Made by a program: the position numbers and the translations under genes. This document shows, one piece after another, positions 2,933 to 33,869 of a stretch of 37,493 nt of DNA. The notes below the pieces were generated by a model, which did not search any database, was not told the origin of the DNA, and worked only from the letters and a program-made list of their open reading frames with translations. The stretch is from a virus. The first letter of the stretch is position 1. Every line of letters begins with the position of its first letter. The DNA lies in the IMG/VR virus record IMGVR_UViG_3300046817_000309, positions 1 to 37,493 of that record, one strand, 5' to 3'.

Positions 2933-3301
2933 GTGCAAGACGAGAAGATGTGGACTTCACGGCAGATCATTGATGCCGTGTTCAACTACAACGGAGGTTG
3001 CTCGCCCGGCAAGACGGACTTCCTCCGTACAATGGGCATTGAGATGGAACCGCGCCGAGAGACGACTGATCTAGACGGCATCTATGTCGTGAGATTCCCG
3101 GTCGATGTGCGGGTAGACGCGCTCCACAACTATTGGGGCAACAGTTCAACCGTTTCGCAGGCTGCGGCTCGGATCATTGGTGAGAATCGCCATCTCGCGG
3201 GTGCGAACTACGGCATGTTGCGCGTTGGGGAGGTGAAAGCGCGAAGGACTCCGAAGGCGAAGCTTGTCACGATGAGCCCGCCGCCGGGGCCGCCCTTCTA
3301 A
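2933..3301 (+). CDS. Hypothetical protein, 122 aa
   Basis: It starts with GTG at 2933; AAAGGGGTC lies upstream. The N-terminal half could form a helical DNA-binding-like fold (SRQIIDAVFNYN, then KTDFLRTMG). The C-terminal quarter is basic (KARRTPKAK) and ends in a Pro/Gly tail. I do not recognise it. It is the last gene before a structured 105-nt gap. Confidence 0.6.
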   Translation: MQDEKMWTSRQIIDAVFNYNGGCSPGKTDFLRTMGIEMEPRRETTDLDGIYVVRFPVDVRVDALHNYWGNSSTVSQAAARIIGENRHLAGANYGMLRVGEVKARRTPKAKLVTMSPPPGPPF

Positions 3302-3406: not shown

Positions 3407-3565
3407 ATGGCACGAGTATGGATTGACACGGTTACAGGCACGTGGGGAGTCTGCGATGGCTCGCTTGTGATCGTCGAAGTCACGGAAGGTCAGATTGAAG
3501 CCCTCGGCGAAATGTCGGATAGCGACATTGCGGATGTGGGTCTAAAGGAAGGACGGCCCGTTTGA
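3407..3565 (+). CDS. Hypothetical protein, 52 aa
   Basis: ATG lies just 3' of AAAGGAGGTGAT, one of the best ribosome sites in the window, which suggests high expression. The protein starts with short predicted strands (ARVWIDTVTGTWGV) and has an acidic C-terminal half. Its stop overlaps the TTG start of the next gene (TTGA). I do not recognise the family. Confidence 0.7.
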   Translation: MARVWIDTVTGTWGVCDGSLVIVEVTEGQIEALGEMSDSDIADVGLKEGRPV

Positions 3566-3906
3566 CAGAGATACTCAACCTAACGGGCCATCCACTTGTA
3601 TTGAAACGTCGGGCCGGTGCGGCAGAAGTCCGTATCAAGAGTCACGGCCGTGTACGAGTGGAAGCCAACTATATAGAAGACGAGATGATTGAGGTCGGGA
3701 ACGGTATCCGTATCCCGATCTTACTTACGTCTAACGGAGATACTTTCTCGTTACCCGCACCCGAGGACGGGAGATTGATTGTCGTCTCGGGTTTGGTTGC
3801 GGGGAGAGTCCGTAGACGTGATGTGTTAGCACCAGCCCGGCTCGCGCGCGAAGGAGGCCAAGTCGAATTCGCCCGAGCCCTGATGAGATACGGAGAACGA
3901 CATTGA
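3562..3906 (+). CDS. Conserved phage-type protein beginning NLTGHP
   Basis: The TTG start overlaps the previous stop; AAGGAAGGACGG provides the ribosome site. The 114-aa protein opens with the pattern LNLTGHPLVL, ends in FARAL and has a central VSGLVAGRVRRRDVLAP. I recognise this as the architecture of a small uncharacterised protein found in actinobacteria and their phages (LTPHxI...VVSxLVA...RxDLL.P). That assignment is from memory. It is probably beta-rich and cytoplasmic; its role is unknown. Confidence 0.65.
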   Translation: MTEILNLTGHPLVLKRRAGAAEVRIKSHGRVRVEANYIEDEMIEVGNGIRIPILLTSNGDTFSLPAPEDGRLIVVSGLVAGRVRRRDVLAPARLAREGGQVEFARALMRYGERH

Positions 3907-17509: not shown

Positions 17510-20500
17510 CTACAGCACCTTCCGTTTCCGCTGCTTCGGCTTCTTCTCCACCGCTTTCGGGGCGATACCTGGGAACAGCTTATCGTAGTTGTCGATGTAG
17601 TTCGCTACCTCATGCGCAGGGTAGAGGTAGCCTTCAAACGGTACCGTCTCGAACGTCCGGATGCCAGCCGTGTTACCAGTCGCGAGGGCATTCGCTACAG
17701 CCGATTGTGCGTCCCGGAACTGGCCGGCGGCCGCTTTAGCGCGAACGTCATAAATGTTGATAGGAGCGATCGCGAACGGCATGTTGAGTTCCTGCCAGAA
17801 CGCCCGCTGATACGCCTCAGGGTTCGACTGTTTCAGCTTCCGCATTGTATCCGTAAAGAGTAGGTAATGGTCGAGTAGTTCGACCTGCGGAATGAACGAC
17901 GACGCAAAGTCGAAGATGTTCAACTTCGGCCTCGTCGCAACTGTCGTCCCGGTGTACGCGTCGTATGTGAAGTTTTGGTGGAGGGACGGCGTGCCCGTGG
18001 ACGGGTTTATGCCCATCGCTTTGAGAGCCGTCTGGTATTCAGGCGCCATTCCCATGAGGAAGCCCGTCATCGAGAACACGCTTGACATTGAGCGGAACGG
18101 ATTCAGGTTGCTGATATCCACGGACTTCTTGTTACCGAACGGATCTACGCCGCCAAACAGGAGCAGTTTCGAGAGCCGTCCAGGGTCACCCGTCTGGTTC
18201 GTGTCCTCCATGTTAGAGGCCAGGTTCGCGAGGATTGCGGCGCGTAGAGGGTGATCGGCCGGATACGTGAGGACGTACTGTAGGATATGCTTCGTGAACG
18301 TCCAGAAGGGAAAGACTTGCCGTACCACTGTCCGCTCAAACGGTGTCAGGTTATCCACGTTAATGAGCGTCTTGTTGACGAAGGCAATGGCATCTTCGTT
18401 CGTGGCCCCATGCCGCATCTGGTGAAGGTAGACGCCCGCACGGTAGAAGTCCGTGGTCAGGTTCTCTAGGTCGTTGATATTCTGCTCGACGTTGACGAGT
18501 CCCTGCCGCGCCTTCGACTGGCGCCACAGTTCGCCGAACTTCATCCCAGAACGAAGCTCCATGATGTTATCGACGCGTTCCTCGTACATACCCTTTTGTA
18601 CGGCATCCGCGCCCTCCTGCCACATAGGGGCGGGAACATCTAGGCGAAGCTGCTGAATCTCGTCCGCGATCTTGCCATCCTTCGCCAGTTTGAATACGGT
18701 AGGCGCGTGCGACAGCATCTCTATGAGCGCACCAGGCTCCCGCAGCGTCGTCATTACAAGGCCGCCGAGCCCGACGTGTACCATATGCCGCGGTCCAGTT
18801 AGAACACTAACTTTGAAGATACGGTGCGCAGGGTCTAGGACCGCTTTAAACGGCATCCTATTCCCCTCCATAAGCTGCGTTAAGCCTTTGGAAACCGCTC
18901 GTGGCATGATGTACGTCTCGCCAGCCTTACCCTTCCACGAATCTACCCACTTATACGGATCGAACGGCACGTACTCTTCCGTCAGATGGGACATTGCGTG
19001 GACGCCGTACCGCTTCTCCATATCCGCTTGGACGTCCGCCATATTGTGGATCAGACCCGACTTGTTCATCAGGTAGTCCACGAATTGCCGCGTGGCTTCC
19101 GTTTGTAGGTAATCGACCGCATGAGCGGATAGTACGGCCCTAACGTCCAGCACCATCGGCGAGAAGTCAAAGATACGAGCGCGCGCAGATTTTGGCTCTA
19201 GAATCTTCGTAGGGAACGGTCTAATCTCGCCGAACGTCATCTTATCGTAATGCTTGTATTCAAGCTCGTGCATCCAGATCGGGTCGAAACCCGCCTTAGA
19301 CATTTGCACCCAATCGTTGAACGCGTTCTTCTCTACTCGTCCTAGTACCTTAGACCCGACTACCGCTTCTAAGTCTTCGCGCGTCTGCGCGCTGGACAGG
19401 TGAGTCGTGAGGTCTTGGTACGCCTGGTGCAGTTCCGCAAGACCTTCCGCGAGGCCGGCGCCCTGCGTCTGGTTTTTGAGTTCCCGCGCCGACTTGAAGA
19501 AGTCGTCTGTCGCGTTTCGGATCAGGGCACCGCGCGCCTGCTCGTGGACTAGCGGATAGAAACGGTCAGGGGCGTCTCGCGTCAAGGCCGTATAGTGAGC
19601 TTTCTCCGCCTTTGCCGAGATGGACTTCCGCGCCTCTAGATCAGTCATCGCCGACGTATACGCCTCTTTGGCCTTCGCGAGTCGATCCACGGCCCCGGCC
19701 GCAACCTTAGACTTAGTGCCGAGTGCGTACGCCTGATCGTAAAGGTAGTTACGGTAGGCTTCCTGTGCGGCTGCTCCCGGACCTTCCCGTCGTAGCTGCG
19801 TTCCGAGACGTGCTAACGCCACCTTGATATCCTGCGGCTTACCAGCCGCGAATGCCCGTTCAACCTTGTCGTAGTATTTCGCGTGTGGTCCCGTTATCCC
19901 CTGACGAATGAAATCCTGGGCAGCATTGTAAAGCGCACCCGCGGAGGAAACGGTCGAGGGCCGTTTCGCTGCGTCCGCCGCAGATTCCCCATACTTGGCG
20001 TACGTTGTCGTTTTCCCGGAGGCTTCTCGTTGGGCTCGTTCGACGGCATCTTTAGCCTTTGTTAGCTTATCCGTGAAGATTTGGACTGCTTTTGCGGCCT
20101 GCTGCGCCTTCTCGTAGGTCCGGTAGACGCGGCTAGACCGGGCGTAGATTTCAGTCTTTCCCGTGATAGGATTCTCGATCGGCACGTTCAGTGAGGGACG
20201 ATCGTGCGATCCGGGCAGAACAGCCTTTCGCGGTACCGTTGACTTCTCTTGCCACTTATCCGAGTATTTACGGATCGCCTGTAGCTGCGCGCCCTCGCCG
20301 GGCTGATAGACACGATTCGGCACCGCGTCTTTGGCGATATAGCCGGTAGTGGCGTCGTAAGAGATATCGCCGGGCGTGACCCGAACTTCGTGTACCATAT
20401 CCTTTAGATACGGGACTATCTCGTCGCCGAACTGACTTTTCGCGTACGCCATAGCCTCACCGGGCGACCAGAAGATTTGCTGGTTAGTCGCGATCGGGTT

Positions 20501-21541
20501 CGCCGTGACGATACCTGACGCGCCATTGAAGTTAGGGTCTGATCCGAGCGAATAGGCTGTGACGTCACGTCCGGGAGGTACGTTTTGAAGAAGGGATTGG
20601 ACGTCTCCGTCTGCGGCCGCGATCTGGTTAGGCGACGGGGCAGGGACCGCCTCTAGCTCGTATCGAGCGTTATATGCCTGGGCGTCGATAACGAGCCGCT
20701 GAGACTCTTCCGCGGATAGCGCCTTCCCAATGAGCCCCGCGTCCTTTAGCTCCGTGATACCTTCCTTGGCGAACCTCCGAGCATAGACTCGCGCAAGTTG
20801 GTTATAGGCCGTCCATACGGGCCGGAACTTCTTCGCGTACTGTGAGAGAGGGCCGTTCGAGTTCTCTAGGAACGACTGGAAACGATCCTCTAGTCCTGTC
20901 TTCCGCGCTATCGCCTGGATCGGGTGACCTTCCTTCATTGCCGCCATAGCCGTCCCGGCCTCTGCCTCGTCCGCGCCGATCGTTAGGAGCTTCGACCCGG
21001 CGGATACGATAGGCAGGACTGAGAGGAAGTCGTTCAGCGGGTGCTCGGAGATGCCTTTCCAGCCGCCTGAGATAGCGAACGCGCCTGGTACTAGCGCCCC
21101 AACGATAGGAGCTGCCTCGACCTGCTGTGCCGCATCCGTGATCTTCATACTCCCAAGATCGCCTAACGCTGCGCCAAGGTGAGGTGCAATCTCTGCCCAC
21201 TTATGCGGATTGATTATGTCCGCAGCTTCGTGGACAAGTCCCGGCATGAACGATCGAACGTCCGTTGTGAGGTCTTTCCCAACGTTCGCGGCCATCGACA
21301 TTGGATTCCAGTCGAAGCTACCGCCTGTCGCTTTCGGTGTCGTCACCTGGCCCGTATAGGCCGAGTGAACCATTGAGATGATTTCTTCCTCAGGCAACGG
21401 ACTACCACCGTCAATGAGGCGTTTCAGGTCCGTCCGCGCTAGCTCCGTCGCCGGCTTGGAATCCATGCCCGCGCCCGTCAACATCGAGATACGACGCTGC
21501 CATTTGAGCGCTTCGGATTGGAGTTCCGGAACGGTCGGCAT
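17510..21541 (-). CDS. Large internal virion protein, 1343 aa
   Basis: This is the longest gene of the window. By position (after the transglycosylase-bearing gene) and size it is probably an ejection/inner-core protein that passes into the host with the DNA. The N-terminal 200 residues contain Ala/Gly-rich segments. Residues about 480-720 are Lys/Ala/Glu-rich helices, likely coiled coil. Residues about 925-1190 include VSVLTGPRHMVHVGLGGLV and VVRQVFPFWTFTKHILQYVL, which resemble the conserved C-terminal part of phage polyvalent/internal proteins (LPD38-like). No enzymatic motif is certain. The Lys-rich end (KKPKQRKRKVL) is notable. Confidence 0.6.
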   Translation of the reverse strand: MPTVPELQSEALKWQRRISMLTGAGMDSKPATELARTDLKRLIDGGSPLPEEEIISMVHSAYTGQVTTPKATGGSFDWNPMSMAANVGKDLTTDVRSFMPGLVHEAADIINPHKWAEIAPHLGAALGDLGSMKITDAAQQVEAAPIVGALVPGAFAISGGWKGISEHPLNDFLSVLPIVSAGSKLLTIGADEAEAGTAMAAMKEGHPIQAIARKTGLEDRFQSFLENSNGPLSQYAKKFRPVWTAYNQLARVYARRFAKEGITELKDAGLIGKALSAEESQRLVIDAQAYNARYELEAVPAPSPNQIAAADGDVQSLLQNVPPGRDVTAYSLGSDPNFNGASGIVTANPIATNQQIFWSPGEAMAYAKSQFGDEIVPYLKDMVHEVRVTPGDISYDATTGYIAKDAVPNRVYQPGEGAQLQAIRKYSDKWQEKSTVPRKAVLPGSHDRPSLNVPIENPITGKTEIYARSSRVYRTYEKAQQAAKAVQIFTDKLTKAKDAVERAQREASGKTTTYAKYGESAADAAKRPSTVSSAGALYNAAQDFIRQGITGPHAKYYDKVERAFAAGKPQDIKVALARLGTQLRREGPGAAAQEAYRNYLYDQAYALGTKSKVAAGAVDRLAKAKEAYTSAMTDLEARKSISAKAEKAHYTALTRDAPDRFYPLVHEQARGALIRNATDDFFKSARELKNQTQGAGLAEGLAELHQAYQDLTTHLSSAQTREDLEAVVGSKVLGRVEKNAFNDWVQMSKAGFDPIWMHELEYKHYDKMTFGEIRPFPTKILEPKSARARIFDFSPMVLDVRAVLSAHAVDYLQTEATRQFVDYLMNKSGLIHNMADVQADMEKRYGVHAMSHLTEEYVPFDPYKWVDSWKGKAGETYIMPRAVSKGLTQLMEGNRMPFKAVLDPAHRIFKVSVLTGPRHMVHVGLGGLVMTTLREPGALIEMLSHAPTVFKLAKDGKIADEIQQLRLDVPAPMWQEGADAVQKGMYEERVDNIMELRSGMKFGELWRQSKARQGLVNVEQNINDLENLTTDFYRAGVYLHQMRHGATNEDAIAFVNKTLINVDNLTPFERTVVRQVFPFWTFTKHILQYVLTYPADHPLRAAILANLASNMEDTNQTGDPGRLSKLLLFGGVDPFGNKKSVDISNLNPFRSMSSVFSMTGFLMGMAPEYQTALKAMGINPSTGTPSLHQNFTYDAYTGTTVATRPKLNIFDFASSFIPQVELLDHYLLFTDTMRKLKQSNPEAYQRAFWQELNMPFAIAPINIYDVRAKAAAGQFRDAQSAVANALATGNTAGIRTFETVPFEGYLYPAHEVANYIDNYDKLFPGIAPKAVEKKPKQRKRKVL

Positions 21542-28780: not shown

Positions 28781-29782
28781 CTACGTGAGTGTTACGAGCT
28801 TAAGCTGACGGACGTTGTTCGCAGAGCAAAGGTTCCCGGCCCACAGGATCAGCGAGGTCATCGCGTCCTGGTTGACGGGCTCCCGGAAGTCCTTCATCGT
28901 GAAGTCGGCCCGCGGGTTCACGTACAGGTACAGGTAGTCCTCGTTCAAGAAGAACATATGTCCCTGGCCGCCAACGCCGTTACCGGGAATGTGCGGGTCC
29001 ACCGCGACCGGAACGTTGTTGAACAGCAGGTTCGTGAACCCGGCCTGACCGAGAAGTTCGTCAACCGCGGACGGCTGAACCGGGAACGCCTGGTTCGCTT
29101 GAAGCAGCGCCCAATATGCGTTGTACCGAAGCTGGTCCGTGACGATAATGGTGGGGTGGCGCGCACCCATCGTCGCGTTACCAAAGGCCGTTTGCATCAC
29201 GGCGAGGGTGAGCGCGCCACCGACGGCGGTAACTTGGCCGTTCCACCACGTATTGGATGCTCGGGCAAGACCACCGTATGTCGCGGCCGTTGTACCCGTG
29301 GAAGCAGCCCCGGTCCAGGCGTGCGTACCATCGTCTACAGCCGCGTCAATGCCGTCGATCTGCTTCAAGTTCGTCTGTGACGACCAGACTCCCTTGCCGA
29401 GAATATCGGCGAGTTCTGTCTGCGCGTTCTCAAAGTAGAACGACAGGAAGTTAACGATCGCTTCCGGCGAGTCCGCCCGGATCAGCGTCAACCCGTCAAC
29501 TGTCACCGGAACGTATGCCTGCTTCCAGTCGAAAGCAGCGTTCTTCACAGTGTCGTTCGGCGCCACGTCCAGGAGGTCGAAGCCCTGGTACGCACCACCG
29601 TTCACGAACTGAGTGAACACCAGCGGGATTTCGATTTGTAGCCCGCCTTGCAGAACCTTCTTCGCCCGCGCATTCAAGCGGAAGAACAAGAGGTTGGACT
29701 GATAGATGTTGTCCACGAGCGTCGGCATAATGTACCGACGGCTAATGGAGTTAATCTCGTTTGTGCCGAACGGCGTTGCCAT
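28781..29782 (-). CDS. Major capsid protein
   Basis: 333 aa. The N-terminus MATPFGTNEINSISRRYIMPTLVDNIY is a typical capsid start. A central helix region with EAIVNFLSFYFENAQTELADI would be the spine-helix area of an HK97-type fold. The block ARHPTIIVTDQLRYNAYWALL, then FNNVPVAVDPHIP and FFLNEDYLYLYVNPRADF near the C-terminus, recalls capsid proteins in which target strands precede a final P-domain. It lies between scaffold and decoration genes, as expected. I do not see a cleavage site for a protease, and no protease gene is apparent. Confidence 0.75.
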   Translation of the reverse strand: MATPFGTNEINSISRRYIMPTLVDNIYQSNLLFFRLNARAKKVLQGGLQIEIPLVFTQFVNGGAYQGFDLLDVAPNDTVKNAAFDWKQAYVPVTVDGLTLIRADSPEAIVNFLSFYFENAQTELADILGKGVWSSQTNLKQIDGIDAAVDDGTHAWTGAASTGTTAATYGGLARASNTWWNGQVTAVGGALTLAVMQTAFGNATMGARHPTIIVTDQLRYNAYWALLQANQAFPVQPSAVDELLGQAGFTNLLFNNVPVAVDPHIPGNGVGGQGHMFFLNEDYLYLYVNPRADFTMKDFREPVNQDAMTSLILWAGNLCSANNVRQLKLVTLT

Positions 29783-29786
29783 TTAC

Positions 29787-30746
29787 CTACTCCGTTTCAG
29801 TGGACTGGCCCATCATTCCCGCCACTTCCGCAATCATCGCGGCTCGACGGTCCTGAGCATTGACGATAGGAACGCCCTTGGGAACGCTCCCGGAACTCCC
29901 CGAGATGCCCGCCAACTTCTGCTTCCGGCGAGTTGACTTAGCTCGGTCTGCTACCGCGGTCTCGATTTCTCGTTCGCGGAATGTGGGATCGAAGTAGTAA
30001 GCGATCTCAAATGCTCTCGCGAACGCCTGACCGCGATCACGAGGGGCAGTCGCGCCAGTCAACGGGTCGATACCTTGGAGCAATCCAGGGACCACGTTCA
30101 ACCGTCCTGCAACTGCTGCGACTCTATCCATCTCGTCAGGAGTGAGGTGATGGGTGGTCGCGAACTCTTCCTTCTTGACGTTCAAGATATGGGTAACTTC
30201 CTCCGCCTCACGATTGAACGTGACGTCGGACAGTTCCCGGATTCGTTGTTCTGCCGCAGCTAGAGATTCCCGCTGTTGCTGTGCTGCGTCGTACAACGCC
30301 TTGATCGTCGGGTCTTCCAGATCGGACTCGTCGATCTCTGGCAACGCGGGCGCCCCACCCGCGGGAGCGTGAGTGGAAGGCGCTCCCGCGGGTGGGTTAT
30401 GGATGCGCTCTTCCAGTAGCTTGTAAAGCTCCGGGTCGCCTGAAAGAATCGCCTCGAATTGTTTGTACGACTTAGCCTGACCACGCGTTAGAGTGACGCC
30501 TGGCTCTACCTCAATGACGTCGTCGTCAGTCTGAGGTGCGGCCTCGGGAGCAACGGGAGGTTCAGACTCATCTTCACCATCGTCATCGCCGCCATCTTCC
30601 TCTTCATCTTCTTCCTCTACTTCGGGTTCGCCCTCTACCTCTTCTTCGCCAGTTTCCTCTTCGTCCTGCGCCAAGGGACCAAACTTGTCCTCTACGTACG
30701 CAAGAAGATCGGCCTCTAGTTCGACGCCGTCGTCTGCCATCGTCAT
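29787..30746 (-). CDS. Scaffolding protein
   Basis: 319 aa. Residues 25-60 are a run of Glu/Asp (about 30 acidic residues). A helical part follows (SYKQFEAILSGDPELYKLLEERIHNP), a Pro/Ala/Gly linker (116-137), a helix-rich centre (QQQRESLAAAEQRIRELSDVTF), and a basic C-terminus (DRAKSTRRKQKLAG). Strong acidic N-terminus, helical centre and basic end are classical scaffold traits; the basic end would bind the capsid. The linker's DNA contains a perfect 16-bp inverted repeat. Confidence 0.75.
   Translation of the reverse strand: MTMADDGVELEADLLAYVEDKFGPLAQDEEETGEEEVEGEPEVEEEDEEEDGGDDDGEDESEPPVAPEAAPQTDDDVIEVEPGVTLTRGQAKSYKQFEAILSGDPELYKLLEERIHNPPAGAPSTHAPAGGAPALPEIDESDLEDPTIKALYDAAQQQRESLAAAEQRIRELSDVTFNREAEEVTHILNVKKEEFATTHHLTPDEMDRVAAVAGRLNVVPGLLQGIDPLTGATAPRDRGQAFARAFEIAYYFDPTFREREIETAVADRAKSTRRKQKLAGISGSSGSVPKGVPIVNAQDRRAAMIAEVAGMMGQSTETE
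30354..30396 (-). repeat. 16-bp inverted repeat inside the scaffold gene
   Basis: Perfectly complementary arms 30354-30369 and 30381-30396 surround an 11-nt loop in the Pro/Ala/Gly linker part of the scaffold gene. The mRNA would form a very stable GC-rich hairpin. It may tune capsid-to-scaffold ratio or slow ribosomes between domains, or only reflect PAG codon usage. Confidence 0.6.
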
Positions 30747-31117
30747 CCCTGTCCTCCTTGCGCTCCGAGGACGCGCCTTAGTTCATCTGGATTTGGTCCG
30801 CCACTAGGACCGGGCGGTCCACCTGGACCTCCCATACCGGCTGCTCCGCCCGCTTGCAAACCTACCGGGCCTCCGCCTCCGCCGGGTGCGATCGAGTTAC
30901 CTCCGCCTGGCCCACCTGGGGGTCCGCCCGGTCCACCGCCGCCGCCTATTGCGTGTTGCGTGGACTCCTTGATTTTCCCAACGATAGCGTGTTGGATTTG
31001 CGTGAGGAATCCCACGTCAGCGTCCTGTGCCGCCATCAACGATCCGAGTTCGCCAAGGATCATCTGTAGACCCTCGTGCATTGAAGGCGGGACCGCGGTG
31101 TTGGGCTTGGGAGGCAT
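30743..31117 (-). CDS. Gly/Pro-rich hypothetical structural protein
   Basis: 124 aa. Residues 1-57 are helical (GLQMILGELGSLMAAQDADVGFLTQIQHAIVGKI), after which the protein is a Gly/Pro repeat (GGPGGPPGGPGGG; GGPGGPPGPSGG) and a short helical end. The repeat resembles collagen-like tracts, though not strict G-x-y. Its end overlaps the scaffold ATG (ATGA) and its start follows the 50-aa gene with no gap. It may be a head-assembly cofactor; a role is not known. Confidence 0.6.
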   Translation of the reverse strand: MPPKPNTAVPPSMHEGLQMILGELGSLMAAQDADVGFLTQIQHAIVGKIKESTQHAIGGGGGPGGPPGGPGGGNSIAPGGGGGPVGLQAGGAAGMGGPGGPPGPSGGPNPDELRRVLGAQGGQG

Positions 31118-31270
31118 TTACCGTGACGACCGTCTTGACATTCGGAAGCCGCGCCCAGGGTTCATCCGCTTCATGCGCCCACCAGCTTTTGACGTCTGAG
31201 AAATGGCGCGCGAAATGTCCTGTGTTCCTGACGGCTTCTGCGAACCAAAGTATCCGCCAAAGCCTGCCAT
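31118..31270 (-). CDS. 50-aa basic Arg/Gly/Ser-rich peptide
   Basis: ATG lies 2 nt after the preceding stop and the TAA is followed at once by the next ATG. The N-terminus is Gly/aromatic (AGFGGYFGSQKPSG), and the second half is strongly basic (GGRMKRMNPGRGFRMSRRSSR). It belongs to a coupled run of tiny genes between portal and scaffold, so it is probably a virion or assembly peptide. No family is recognised. Confidence 0.6.
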   Translation of the reverse strand: MAGFGGYFGSQKPSGTQDISRAISQTSKAGGRMKRMNPGRGFRMSRRSSR

Positions 31271-31272
31271 GA

Positions 31273-31413
31273 TTACGGCTTCACTTCCTTAGCCGCCTCA
31301 GCCTGCGGGCCGATCGCGTCGATGCCGATTTCATTACCGTTCGCACGGGACGTAGTATGTCCCATGCGCATGAACTGGTTCGTGCCCTTCTTGAAGTTAC
31401 CTTGTGCGGGCAT
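31273..31413 (-). CDS. 46-aa mixed-charge peptide
   Basis: ATG follows the preceding stop directly (TAGATG), and GGAGAAAG gives a fair ribosome site. The N-terminal half is basic (NFKKGTNQFMRMGHTTSRANG), the C-terminal half acidic and Ala-rich. It is less basic than its neighbours, but in the same coupled run. Function unknown. Confidence 0.6.
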   Translation of the reverse strand: MPAQGNFKKGTNQFMRMGHTTSRANGNEIGIDAIGPQAEAAKEVKP

Positions 31414-31485
31414 CTACTTTCTCCGTCCTCTGAGATTCTTTCCGACCGACACGCGCTTGCCGGAACGAGCGTGGTGCATCCTCAT
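31414..31485 (-). CDS. 23-aa strongly basic peptide
   Basis: The ATG is preceded by GGAGGGG, a strong ribosome site, and starts 2 nt after the previous stop. Of 23 residues 9 are Arg or Lys and 2 His, with no acidic residue (HHARSGKRVSVGKNLRGRRK). It would bind nucleic acid or other polyanions. It is too short for most gene finders and is clearly coupled to both neighbours. Confidence 0.6.
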   Translation of the reverse strand: MRMHHARSGKRVSVGKNLRGRRK

Positions 31486-31487
31486 GG

Positions 31488-31577
31488 TCAACCCCTCCGC
31501 GCAGAACGCTTGTGCTTTCGCGTGTGATGCTGCGGGTGGCCGTGGGCAAACCCGACTTTCTTAGCGTTGACTGCCAC
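31488..31577 (-). CDS. 29-aa Lys/Arg/His-rich peptide
   Basis: GTG overlaps the previous TAG (TAGTG on the minus strand). The peptide has 8 Lys/Arg and 5 His and no acidic residue (FAHGHPQHHTRKHKRSARRG). The His content is unusual and could bind metal or act in pH-dependent binding. It is part of the same run; the ribosome site is moderate (AAGGGA upstream), with coupling compensating. Confidence 0.55.
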   Translation of the reverse strand: MAVNAKKVGFAHGHPQHHTRKHKRSARRG

Positions 31578-31642
31578 TAGTACCGCCGTCCCTTCCGCGA
31601 CTTCTTACGGGGATTCCCCGCTCTTGCCGCTAGCGCTGGCAT
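31577..31642 (-). CDS. 21-aa strongly basic peptide
   Basis: ATG is 5 nt after AGGAGG, a perfect ribosome site. Eight of 21 residues are Arg or Lys, with no acidic residue (ARAGNPRKKSRKGRRY). It follows the GNRA-type hairpin and overlaps the next start by one base. DNA or RNA binding is the obvious guess. Confidence 0.55.
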   Translation of the reverse strand: MPALAARAGNPRKKSRKGRRY

Positions 31643-31668
31643 TGAGTCCTCCTAGTTACGCATTGTTC

Positions 31669-31690
31669 GCGGGGGAGTCGCCTCCCCCGC
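31669..31690 (-). promoter_or_regulatory. GC hairpin with GNRA tetraloop
   Basis: On the minus strand GCGGGGGAG pairs with CTCCCCCGC around the tetraloop GCGA (9 bp). GNRA loops are very stable RNA caps. No T-tract follows, so it is not an intrinsic terminator. It lies between the 13-aa and 21-aa genes, where it could stabilise or punctuate the late mRNA. Confidence 0.6.
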
Positions 31691-31696
31691 TGGAAC

Positions 31697-31738
31697 TCAC
31701 TTGCCCCGCTTGTGATGCCGACCACGCCGACGTGCCAT
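31697..31738 (-). CDS. 13-aa Arg/Lys/His-rich peptide
   Basis: The ATG has a good ribosome site (AAAGGTGGTGAT) in front. The encoded MARRRGRHHKRGK has 7 Arg/Lys and 2 His in 13 residues. At this length a chance frame cannot be excluded, but the ribosome site, position and similarity in composition to three following genes argue for a real peptide. Confidence 0.4.
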   Translation of the reverse strand: MARRRGRHHKRGK

Positions 31739-31778: not shown

Positions 31779-32018
31779 TTACAGATAGTCCATGTTGTTC
31801 GCGACGGCAGGGTTGTCGTAGTCGTGATCCTGTCCGCCGTACTCGCCGCCGAAATCGGCTTCGTCGCATTCAAGAACGTTCCGCCGGTCGATGCTATTCA
31901 TCTCTTCGCCGGTTTCCGTGTTCGGGTTCCAACCGAGACGACCTGCACTCCCTTGACGGAGGATCGCCCCGTCAGGGCCGTTCAGCGGCTTGCCATCGGG
32001 AGGTTTCGGATATCCCAT
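31779..32018 (-). CDS. Hypothetical acidic protein, 79 aa
   Basis: ATG follows AAGGATC. The N-terminus is Gly/Pro-rich (GYPKPPDGKPLNGPDG), the rest acidic with aromatic residues (CDEADFGGEYGGQDHDYDN). It lies after the portal gene and before the basic peptides, so an acidic-basic pairing between products is conceivable. No family is recognised. Confidence 0.5.
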   Translation of the reverse strand: MGYPKPPDGKPLNGPDGAILRQGSAGRLGWNPNTETGEEMNSIDRRNVLECDEADFGGEYGGQDHDYDNPAVANNMDYL

Positions 32019-32063: not shown

Positions 32064-33869
32064 TTAGCTCCGTTGTGACCGTTGGCGCGTCCCTCCCGGA
32101 ACGCCTCCCATGATTCCTTTCTGCATCTTCTCGTACTTGCGGTCAAGCAGTTCCTTAATATGTGGGTACTGATGCGCTTCTAGGACCGCTTGGTCGTCGA
32201 TCACCTGCATAGCGAACAGCTTATCCGCCTCATTGATACGCGACTGCCGTGACGTTGGCGCCGACGCTCCCGCACGAACCTGAATGATGTATTCGAGAGG
32301 CGTGTCGCCAGACTTAGACGGAAGAAGGAAGTGGTTCTTGAACAGAACCATCGCGGTCTTCTCGCCGTCAGGGCCAATAATCGCCATGACACGCTTCTGA
32401 TCGTAGTTGTCGATGATGAGGTCCGCGAGTTTCCGAGCACAACGTTCGATTGTCGCTTCTAGATTCGACAGTGAACCTCGGATACGTACGAACGCAGCCT
32501 CTTGAACCGAGTTAACTACCTGTGCTGCGGACCGTTGGTTCGGCTGATGGCCTTTTGTGACGCCACTTAGACCGCTCGTATTCTCGATACGGTTGATCCA
32601 GAACTGTACGAGGTCCATAACGAGAGGCGGCATGTTCGGCGGAGTCAGCCAATCCGGCTTGTTCTGCATCGCCTGGACACCATTGATCGTTAGGCGTTGC
32701 CCAGGACGATTAATGATCGGGACTCTAGACGTGCCAGAGTTCGCGGACTCAACGAAGATCGGGTTACCGATCAGTTCCGTGTTCTGTTGCAACATCGAGA
32801 GTAGGCGATTGATATAGATTTGCGGGTACGCCAAATGATCGACGAGTGCTAGACCGTAGAAATCTCCGACGTCATCAGCGACATACCGCTCATAAGGATG
32901 CTGCGCGTGACTCCACAAATCCTCAGCGAACTCGTCCATGAGGATTTCGCCCTTAGCCATGATGACAACACGCCATCTCGACGTAACGTGCTTCTGTGAA
33001 TCGGGGCGCTGTTTCTTCGGGAGGTCTTCGTAGTCGTCGTACCAGATTTCATTCTCGCGGAGCCAGAACTCGTAGACGACAATCCCCTTATCAAAGTCCG
33101 AACCTTTAGAACGCGTGGGTCGTCCATAGCGTCCGATCACAGATGCACCGGGCGAAGAGAACGTTCCGCTACCTGGAATCTGTCCTGCATTAGCGAACGG
33201 CGTACGGTTAGAGTCAGATTGGAGTTGCGGCTTCTCGTCGATCTGTAGATCGGTGCCGCCGCCTGCCTCTAGCGGAAGGCGTGACTCCGGGTAGCGACGT
33301 TCGATCTCGTCGAGACTCATCCGCTTAGCTTCGACGCAATACATCATATCGTCAAGAGACGTTGCTTGCGGGTCTACATAGAACGACCAGGGATCGACTC
33401 GGAGCGGCTTAGCGTTCCCCATGCCGCCGGCGAGTTCCTGATCCCATACGTTCTTGAAGATGCCGACGCCGTAAACCATCGAGTCCCACACGACGAGTTT
33501 CTCTTGCGCCTCGTAGTTCTCAACGATCCAGTTCGTGTAGAGGATCGCGGACAGATCATTCGCGAGGTTCGACTGGTAATCAAAGTACGGTGAGTGCGGG
33601 TCCGCAGACGGCAGACAGTCAATCGAAATGTTGTTGTCAAGCATCCACGAGACGATCGACGAACAAGTCGGGTAGATTTCCGAGGACCGCGGTGACGGTT
33701 GCCATGCGGCGATCCCCTGCGTGTTCATCCGGTTATTAACAAGCCGCCAGTTCCGATTCCACCCGTCGTGGCGCGCGCGACGTGAGTCTCGCGCCCGAAC
33801 GAATAGCTGACGTAGACGGTTAATCAGTTCCATATCCTGGTCGGAATACATTACGTTAGTCGTTGCCAT
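32064..33869 (-). CDS. Portal protein
   Basis: 601 aa. Seen features are an N-terminal helical region (MELINRLRQLFVRARDSRRARHDGW), AILYTNWIVENYEAQEKLVVWDSMVYGVGIFKNVWD (107-142), LRVDPWSFYVDPQATS, a wing-like insertion (about 195-275), and the stem-region YPQIYINRLLSMLQQNTELIGNP. A GVTKGHQPNQRSAAQVVNSVQEAA helix and a crown-like C-terminus complete it. The YG.G....W and .DP......P.A blocks are typical of phage portals. It would form the dodecameric DNA gate and nucleate assembly. Stop and start neighbours are small virion genes. Confidence 0.8.
   Translation of the reverse strand: MATTNVMYSDQDMELINRLRQLFVRARDSRRARHDGWNRNWRLVNNRMNTQGIAAWQPSPRSSEIYPTCSSIVSWMLDNNISIDCLPSADPHSPYFDYQSNLANDLSAILYTNWIVENYEAQEKLVVWDSMVYGVGIFKNVWDQELAGGMGNAKPLRVDPWSFYVDPQATSLDDMMYCVEAKRMSLDEIERRYPESRLPLEAGGGTDLQIDEKPQLQSDSNRTPFANAGQIPGSGTFSSPGASVIGRYGRPTRSKGSDFDKGIVVYEFWLRENEIWYDDYEDLPKKQRPDSQKHVTSRWRVVIMAKGEILMDEFAEDLWSHAQHPYERYVADDVGDFYGLALVDHLAYPQIYINRLLSMLQQNTELIGNPIFVESANSGTSRVPIINRPGQRLTINGVQAMQNKPDWLTPPNMPPLVMDLVQFWINRIENTSGLSGVTKGHQPNQRSAAQVVNSVQEAAFVRIRGSLSNLEATIERCARKLADLIIDNYDQKRVMAIIGPDGEKTAMVLFKNHFLLPSKSGDTPLEYIIQVRAGASAPTSRQSRINEADKLFAMQVIDDQAVLEAHQYPHIKELLDRKYEKMQKGIMGGVPGGTRQRSQRS

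Follow-up and report, generated by a model that had tools for sequence, protein, structure and literature searches.

The head operon of this virus raises the question of what a row of very small, mostly basic peptides is doing between the genes for the portal and for a putative scaffold. The window, that is, the whole stretch of DNA analysed, is a virus record of 37,493 bases in which the late genes lie on the minus strand, in the order portal, 79-aa gene, six tiny genes (13, 21, 29, 23, 46, and 50 aa), 124-aa gene, 319-aa gene, and capsid. The portal protein (601 aa, 32064..33869, minus) matches the P22 portal family PF16510 (E 8.4e-29) and the portal family phrog_156, and the major capsid protein (333 aa, 28781..29782, minus) matches the major head protein family phrog_9953 (E 1.6e-57); the window also matches an SU10-type adaptor (PF24175) and a terminase. 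The 319-aa protein (29787..30746, minus) gave no family match and is designated a putative scaffold on account of its location just ahead of the capsid gene and its strongly acidic composition (74 D/E, 29 K/R). The original prediction placed the tiny genes between portal and scaffold, which holds for their location, although they are not the immediate neighbours of either. Upstream lies a 79-aa acidic gene (31779..32018, minus), with a similar-sized acidic gene here in most relatives, and the last gene before the scaffold is a 124-aa Gly/Pro-rich one (PDAD...NPDELRR; 30743..31117, minus), which is kept in relatives and is similar in position to p46 of Mx8.

All six predicted ORFs were located on the minus strand. 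The cascade begins with a 13-aa gene (MARRRGRHHKRGK, "F1"; 31697..31738), followed by a 21-aa cationic gene (MPALAARAGNPRKKSRKGRRY; 31577..31642), a 29-aa cationic, His-rich gene with a GTG start (31488..31577), a 23-aa cationic gene (MRMHHARSGKRVSVGKNLRGRRK; 31414..31485), a conserved 46-aa gene (KKGTNQFMRMGHT...KEVKP; 31273..31413), and a 50-aa basic gene with 11 K/R and one acidic residue (31118..31270). Start codons were picked by Shine-Dalgarno (SD) site and coupling. The tight coupling that had been predicted is observed: from the second gene onward, neighbours are spaced by -1, +2, 0, and +2 nt, the first value being a 1-nt overlap of the GTG start of the 29-aa gene with the stop of the 21-aa gene, and the 124-aa gene abuts the 50-aa gene at 0 nt. 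The sole gap in the cascade, of 54 nt, separates the 13-aa and 21-aa genes. Good SD sites precede the 13-aa (GGTGAT), 21-aa (AGGAGG), and 23-aa (GGAGG) genes and are weak in the other three. As predicted, the first four products contain 7, 8, 8, and 9 Lys+Arg and no Asp or Glu. Their description as His-rich applies to the 13-, 29-, and 23-aa products (2, 5, and 2 His) but not to the 21-aa product, which has none. Similarly, the term protamine-like is appropriate in that they are polycationic, but not in a pure sense, as the middle genes are two-part in design: their N-terminal half is less charged and their tail polycationic. The 46-aa product is a different kind of peptide, conserved and nearly charge-balanced.

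Bacterial DNA commonly contains very short ORFs, and the cascade might consist of chance ORFs in a GC-rich spacer. However, when the whole 37.5-kb window was scanned for ORFs with an ATG start, an SD site 4 nt or longer, a length of 10-62 aa, K+R of at least 25%, and D+E of at most 5%, only five qualified, four of them within the cascade (one of these begins at a start codon inside the 50-aa gene). In 500 dinucleotide shuffles of the 521-nt core, with GTG starts allowed, the mean was 0.25 and the maximum 2, compared with 4 observed. The codon-position bias and the conserved order, start, stop, and composition described below also argue against chance, and the shuffles and the conservation in relatives together rule it out for practical purposes. 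The lack of conserved start, stop, and composition in relatives had been named as what would refute the original prediction; this conservation was looked for and is present, and on this point the prediction was not refuted.

With regard to relatives, no close relative of the window was found in the phage isolate collection, and the portal query found no relative in bacterial or archaeal genomes that would point to a host or provirus. Using the portal as the query, we obtained relatives from uncultured IMG/VR records, first 6 and then 35 aligned loci, some of which are identical or near-identical contigs (e.g., L012-L014); those with a full cascade are all metagenomic. Their portals are 37-72% identical to that of the window. 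A cascade of the same kind occupies the same position in nearly all relatives whose DNA spans the interval, and the gene order is shared: the portal is followed by an acidic gene, the 11-16-aa gene, further cationic genes, the 46-aa gene, a gene of 120-150 aa, the acidic scaffold, and the capsid.

The first gene has an 11-16-aa counterpart in nearly all relatives (MARRRGRHHKRK, MARRGRKHGRRGRK, MARRGRRHHRK, and similar), with synonymous codon changes and mostly preceded by a G-rich SD site. It reads as a longer form in L011 and L017 and is replaced in L030 and L032-L037 by a 24-25-aa gene with a GGRKHGRKGR end. The 46-aa gene is present in every relative that is long enough, with the consensus KKGTNQFMRxGHT...DLKP, and residues R16, G18, T20, and G26 are invariant in the alignment of 23 sequences (A3). 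Between these two genes lie 0-5 more cationic genes, which change rapidly, most relatives having 2-6 cationic genes per genome. Relatives of the 21-aa gene are found in L008, L009, and L010, those of the 29-aa gene in L009 (6167-6259) and L010 (6696-6803), and those of the 23-aa gene, which share an R-V-x-V-G-R core, in L008, L010, L028, L023, and L029. Similarly placed basic genes correspond to the 50-aa gene in L008 (84 aa), L009 (56 aa), and L010 (57 aa, before the 46-aa gene). The first and the 46-aa genes are conserved, and the genes between them vary fast in sequence and number while keeping their design. As a separate observation, the first genes of L009 (5995-6030) and L024 (4994-5029) encode an identical 12-aa peptide with 35 of 36 bases identical, despite the L024 portal being only 42% identical to that of the window; DNA-level constraint or transfer is possible.

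A search with a DNA pattern for the first gene recovered known loci and two new, more distant members, L077 and L081, in which the first gene, a 46-49-aa gene, a 129-149-aa gene, an acidic scaffold, and the capsid are present and an acidic gene replaces the cationic ones; a repeated-hit group in the same search was judged to be chance. With the capsid as bait, first-gene-like genes were found down to approximately 45-52% capsid identity (L103, L104, and L106), and the same criteria gave none in L101, L102, and L107. No cascade was seen among loci with approximately 30% capsid identity, nor in Mx8, 45A6, and ppBjS10J-1, which led us to reject a property of the whole capsid family; the cascade therefore characterises a single lineage of uncultured, short-tailed phages. 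Some of its members have a small gene with a strongly acidic product inserted in the cascade beside the 46-aa gene, namely L005 (4018-4407), L026 (9529-9720), L029 (6401-6574), L077 (748-1008), and L081 (376-600).

In DNA alignments of close groups, the tiny cationic genes had 196/182/281 substitutions at the three codon positions and the 46-aa gene had 68/59/180, counts in which the within-group pairs are not independent, so that the associated p-values are too small. Protein-guided pN/pS was 0.14-0.55 across all families, computed on pairs at least 50% identical, which lowers pN. In L015, L018, and L021 the first-gene peptides are identical and the codon differences are synonymous only. Substitutions are concentrated at third codon positions, and the peptides are therefore selected. 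The genes are real, selected at the protein level, fixed in place and order, bipartite cationic, and coupled.

Composition is kept far better than sequence. Across 76 cascade genes in 25 loci, the products average 39% K+R, 1.5% D+E, and 15% Gly, with no Cys, and 53 lack any acidic residue. K/R of at least 25% combined with D/E of at most 5% is found in 63/76 cascade genes and in 7/130 other similar-sized ORFs of the same stretches, a descriptive comparison given that the cascade set was picked partly by eye, by SD site and by coupling. In the middle genes (41 non-redundant), the N-terminal half has 21% K/R and 41% hydrophobic residues, compared with 46% and 12% in the C-terminal half (Wilcoxon, 2.6e-7). 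A candidate N-terminal docking motif, R/K-G-S/G-x-I/V-P, gave 3 hits against 0.18 expected, with a shuffle maximum of 3; the hits are too few to make a shared motif more than suggestive. An AlphaFold model of the 46-aa peptide, made with 23 relatives, had a mean pLDDT of 60 and no secondary structure and was of no use for a fold search.

Of the 41 non-redundant middle genes, 34 have Arg as the penultimate residue. In a separate codon count, a penultimate Arg is encoded by AGR in 27/41 cases where the next gene follows within 4 nt and in 3/26 where none follows (p 1.2e-5), and AGR makes up 26/195 Arg codons inside the genes. The AGR codons of the cationic tail thus double as the SD site of the directly adjoining gene. 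The cationic tails cannot be put down to SD requirements, since CGN codons predominate at interior Arg positions. The C-terminal Arg as a mere by-product of the embedded SD site was likewise rejected: the choice of codon is such a by-product, but the penultimate Arg persists where no gene directly follows (26/30), mostly with a CGN codon, which indicates that the Arg tail is also selected as protein.

Tailed phages are usually assumed to pack bare DNA by motor force and small cations, and protamine-like proteins are used by many eukaryotic dsDNA viruses. Our preferred explanation, which we consider about evenly balanced between right and wrong, is that the cascade gives a tailed dsDNA phage a set of internal head peptides that are intrinsically disordered and packaged with the DNA. 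The peptides would be made by relay translation within the head-assembly operon; the less charged N-terminal half would dock either on the acidic scaffold or on the interior surface of the shell, so that the peptides are built into the prohead, the Lys/Arg-rich C-terminal tail would contact the incoming DNA and offset part of its charge, and the peptides may exit with the DNA at infection. Entry into the head, the docking partner, DNA binding, and ejection are steps that we infer. At assumed copy numbers of 120-420, the 32 net charges of the first four peptides would neutralise approximately 5-18% of the phosphates of 37.5 kb. The place in the head operon, the neighbouring strongly acidic scaffold, the gene order, the composition, the bipartite design, the third-position excess, and the precedent of T4 count for this explanation. 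On the other side, cascade charge does not covary with scaffold acidity (Spearman 0.04, 14 loci), no conserved docking motif clearly passed its test, and peptides of 11-16 aa are too short for a separate docking half; retention of the first gene in L077 and L081, where other cationic genes are almost absent, counts against bulk neutralisation. A truly protamine-like core evolved by one lineage of tailed dsDNA phages, in which the products of a micro-peptide gene array (the shortest gene of 11 codons) enter the head together with the genome and make packaging less costly in energy, with the tail codons of one gene serving as the ribosome-binding site of the next, is a possibility that we put forward tentatively.

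None of the 48 peptides of at least 20 aa had a meaningful match in Pfam, NCBIfam, or PHROGs, and a profile of the 46-aa gene and two tested peptides retrieved nothing meaningful from PDB sequences. The prohead protease site of T4 contains Glu (L/I-x-E), and no such site is possible in the 53 peptides lacking an acidic residue. The closest working model would nonetheless be the T4 internal proteins, by analogy and not by relationship. These are three small, basic proteins of approximately 300 copies each, which bind DNA in low salt and enter the prohead via a 10-residue N-terminal capsid-targeting sequence (PMC9026906), co-purify with the core protein gp22, and vary between relatives (PMC9026906; PMC7697877). 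The likenesses are several small basic proteins per phage, in the head module and poorly conserved between relatives, and, as a proposed shared design, an N-terminal targeting segment with a basic body (PMC9026906, PMC7697877). In contrast, the T4 proteins are approximately 8-20 kDa and have their targeting peptide removed by the prohead protease, whereas the cascade peptides are 11-60 aa, mostly lack acidic residues, and have no sequence match to them: no homology to IPI, IPII, or IPIII was found for the 48 peptides in PHROGs, Pfam, and NCBIfam.

The J protein of phiX174 (Microviridae) is likewise a tiny DNA-binding peptide that guides the genome in the capsid (PMC13386984). It is the product of a single gene in a virus with single-stranded DNA and no tail, and the window, with its matches to a P22-type portal, an SU10-type adaptor, and a terminase, is not a ssDNA microvirus. 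The basic part of J is N-terminal and its capsid-binding part C-terminal, the reverse of the order in the cascade peptides, where the basic tail is C-terminal. Adenovirus VII and mu arise from cleaved precursors. Together with baculovirus P6.9, they are basic, protamine-like, DNA-binding proteins of dsDNA viruses (PMC4189039, PMC6163548) but belong to eukaryotic viruses of other capsid lineages, with no family match here. A protamine-like composition, i.e., rich in Arg/Lys, with few acidic residues and of low complexity, is found in the cascade at the averages given above. A recognisable family is encountered only in distant relatives, namely phrog_2423, a 56-57-aa basic phage protein that has a cationic tail and sits at the position of the cascade in L030 and L032-L037; it differs in being longer, in its conserved N-terminal sequence, and in being scattered in unrelated phages. 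The window peptides have no phrog_2423 match, and a relative in L035 does. The sequence of this type in L030 and L032-L037 is MPLKSGSSxKT...HPQKQA..., and proteins resembling it occur here and there in phages of Acinetobacter, Caulobacter, and Pseudomonas. For SU10, a well-studied phage whose adaptor is related, the analysis relied on major bands cut out of gels (PMC9509320), an approach that could easily miss peptides of cascade size.

The 54-nt gap contains a perfect 9-bp hairpin (GCGGGGGAG-GCGA-CTCCCCCGC; 31669..31690, minus), which has no Rfam match. In most relatives the matching gap also holds a strong GC-rich hairpin, with arms unrelated between loci (L004, L006, L010, L016, L020-L023, L026, and L028-L035), usually directly behind the first gene and with free energies of -18 to -62 kcal/mol (z down to -6.5 in mononucleotide shuffles); it is weak or absent in L009 and unclear in L018 and L024. 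An intrinsic terminator was rejected, as none is reported there and no T-run is present. The hairpin could plausibly separate portal from capsid expression by marking a point at which the mRNA is processed or its stability changes. In a further explanation, it would combine with the Arg-rich first gene into a regulatory leader or mRNA processing point that keeps low-copy portal apart from high-copy capsid expression, with peptides that are RNA-binding or incidental. The recurrence of the hairpin with unrelated arms and the use of C-terminal AGR codons as SD sites suit such an RNA-level device, which we nevertheless regard as improbable, given that selection acts on the peptide sequence itself, that the penultimate Arg is kept, mostly as CGN, without a directly following gene, and that one or two other genes separate the first gene from the hairpin in L023, L026, and L029.

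Two further explanations concern the site of action of the peptides. They might be unpackaged assembly factors, binding the acidic scaffold or portal as counter-ions or chaperones, tuning scaffold density or release and leaving with the scaffold. The cascade is flanked by the portal on one side and on the other by a scaffold carrying about 50-74 acidic residues, the coupled arrangement runs into the scaffold and capsid genes, and the conserved members are the first and the 46-aa genes, all of which fit. The absence of covariation between cascade charge and scaffold acidity, however, bears on this role as well, and Mx8-type phages, with related capsid proteins, manage without a cascade; we consider it unlikely. 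Somewhat less likely still are host-directed peptides, made late or injected, that hit ribosomes, the nucleoid, RNA polymerase, or restriction enzymes. The fast evolution and shifting number of the middle genes would suit an arms race, and T4 IPI, with its anti-restriction role, is a precedent (PMC9026906). Against this, it is composition and not sequence that is kept, always within the head operon; the middle genes lack Cys and Trp; and no other known family was matched in Pfam, NCBIfam, or PHROGs. The originally suggested action on host ribosomes has lost ground in particular, as ribosomal protein profiles (bL34, bL36, bTHX, and others) in Pfam and NCBIfam had no match at E<=1 among the 48 peptides and the genes are tied to the head module only.

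Conserved, fast-changing cationic micro-peptides in a phage head operon make charge neutralisation by phage peptides directly testable. They also represent a conserved family of genes of 11-16 codons beyond the reach of standard gene finders, which supports the earlier expectation that the cascade would easily be missed, and a compact trick by which the basic tail of one gene encodes the ribosome-binding site of the next. In L044 (MW202825.1), a phage deposited in GenBank whose capsid is a distant match, two basic ORFs of 13 aa that lack annotation and have good SD sites (MYKKHKRSRKTRR, 3412-3453, and MARKARKTRKGRK, 3531-3572) lie directly behind the portal gene. In L040 (Stenotrophomonas phage BUCT555), a 52-aa basic protein (3050-3208; 14 K/R, 3 acidic), annotated only as hypothetical, is encoded by a gene that overlaps the end of the upstream putative portal gene. 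Within the window, a 1343-aa late-operon protein (17510-21541, minus), which had no match in PHROGs or Pfam, ends in a basic tail (KKPKQRKRKVL) and is possibly an ejection protein.
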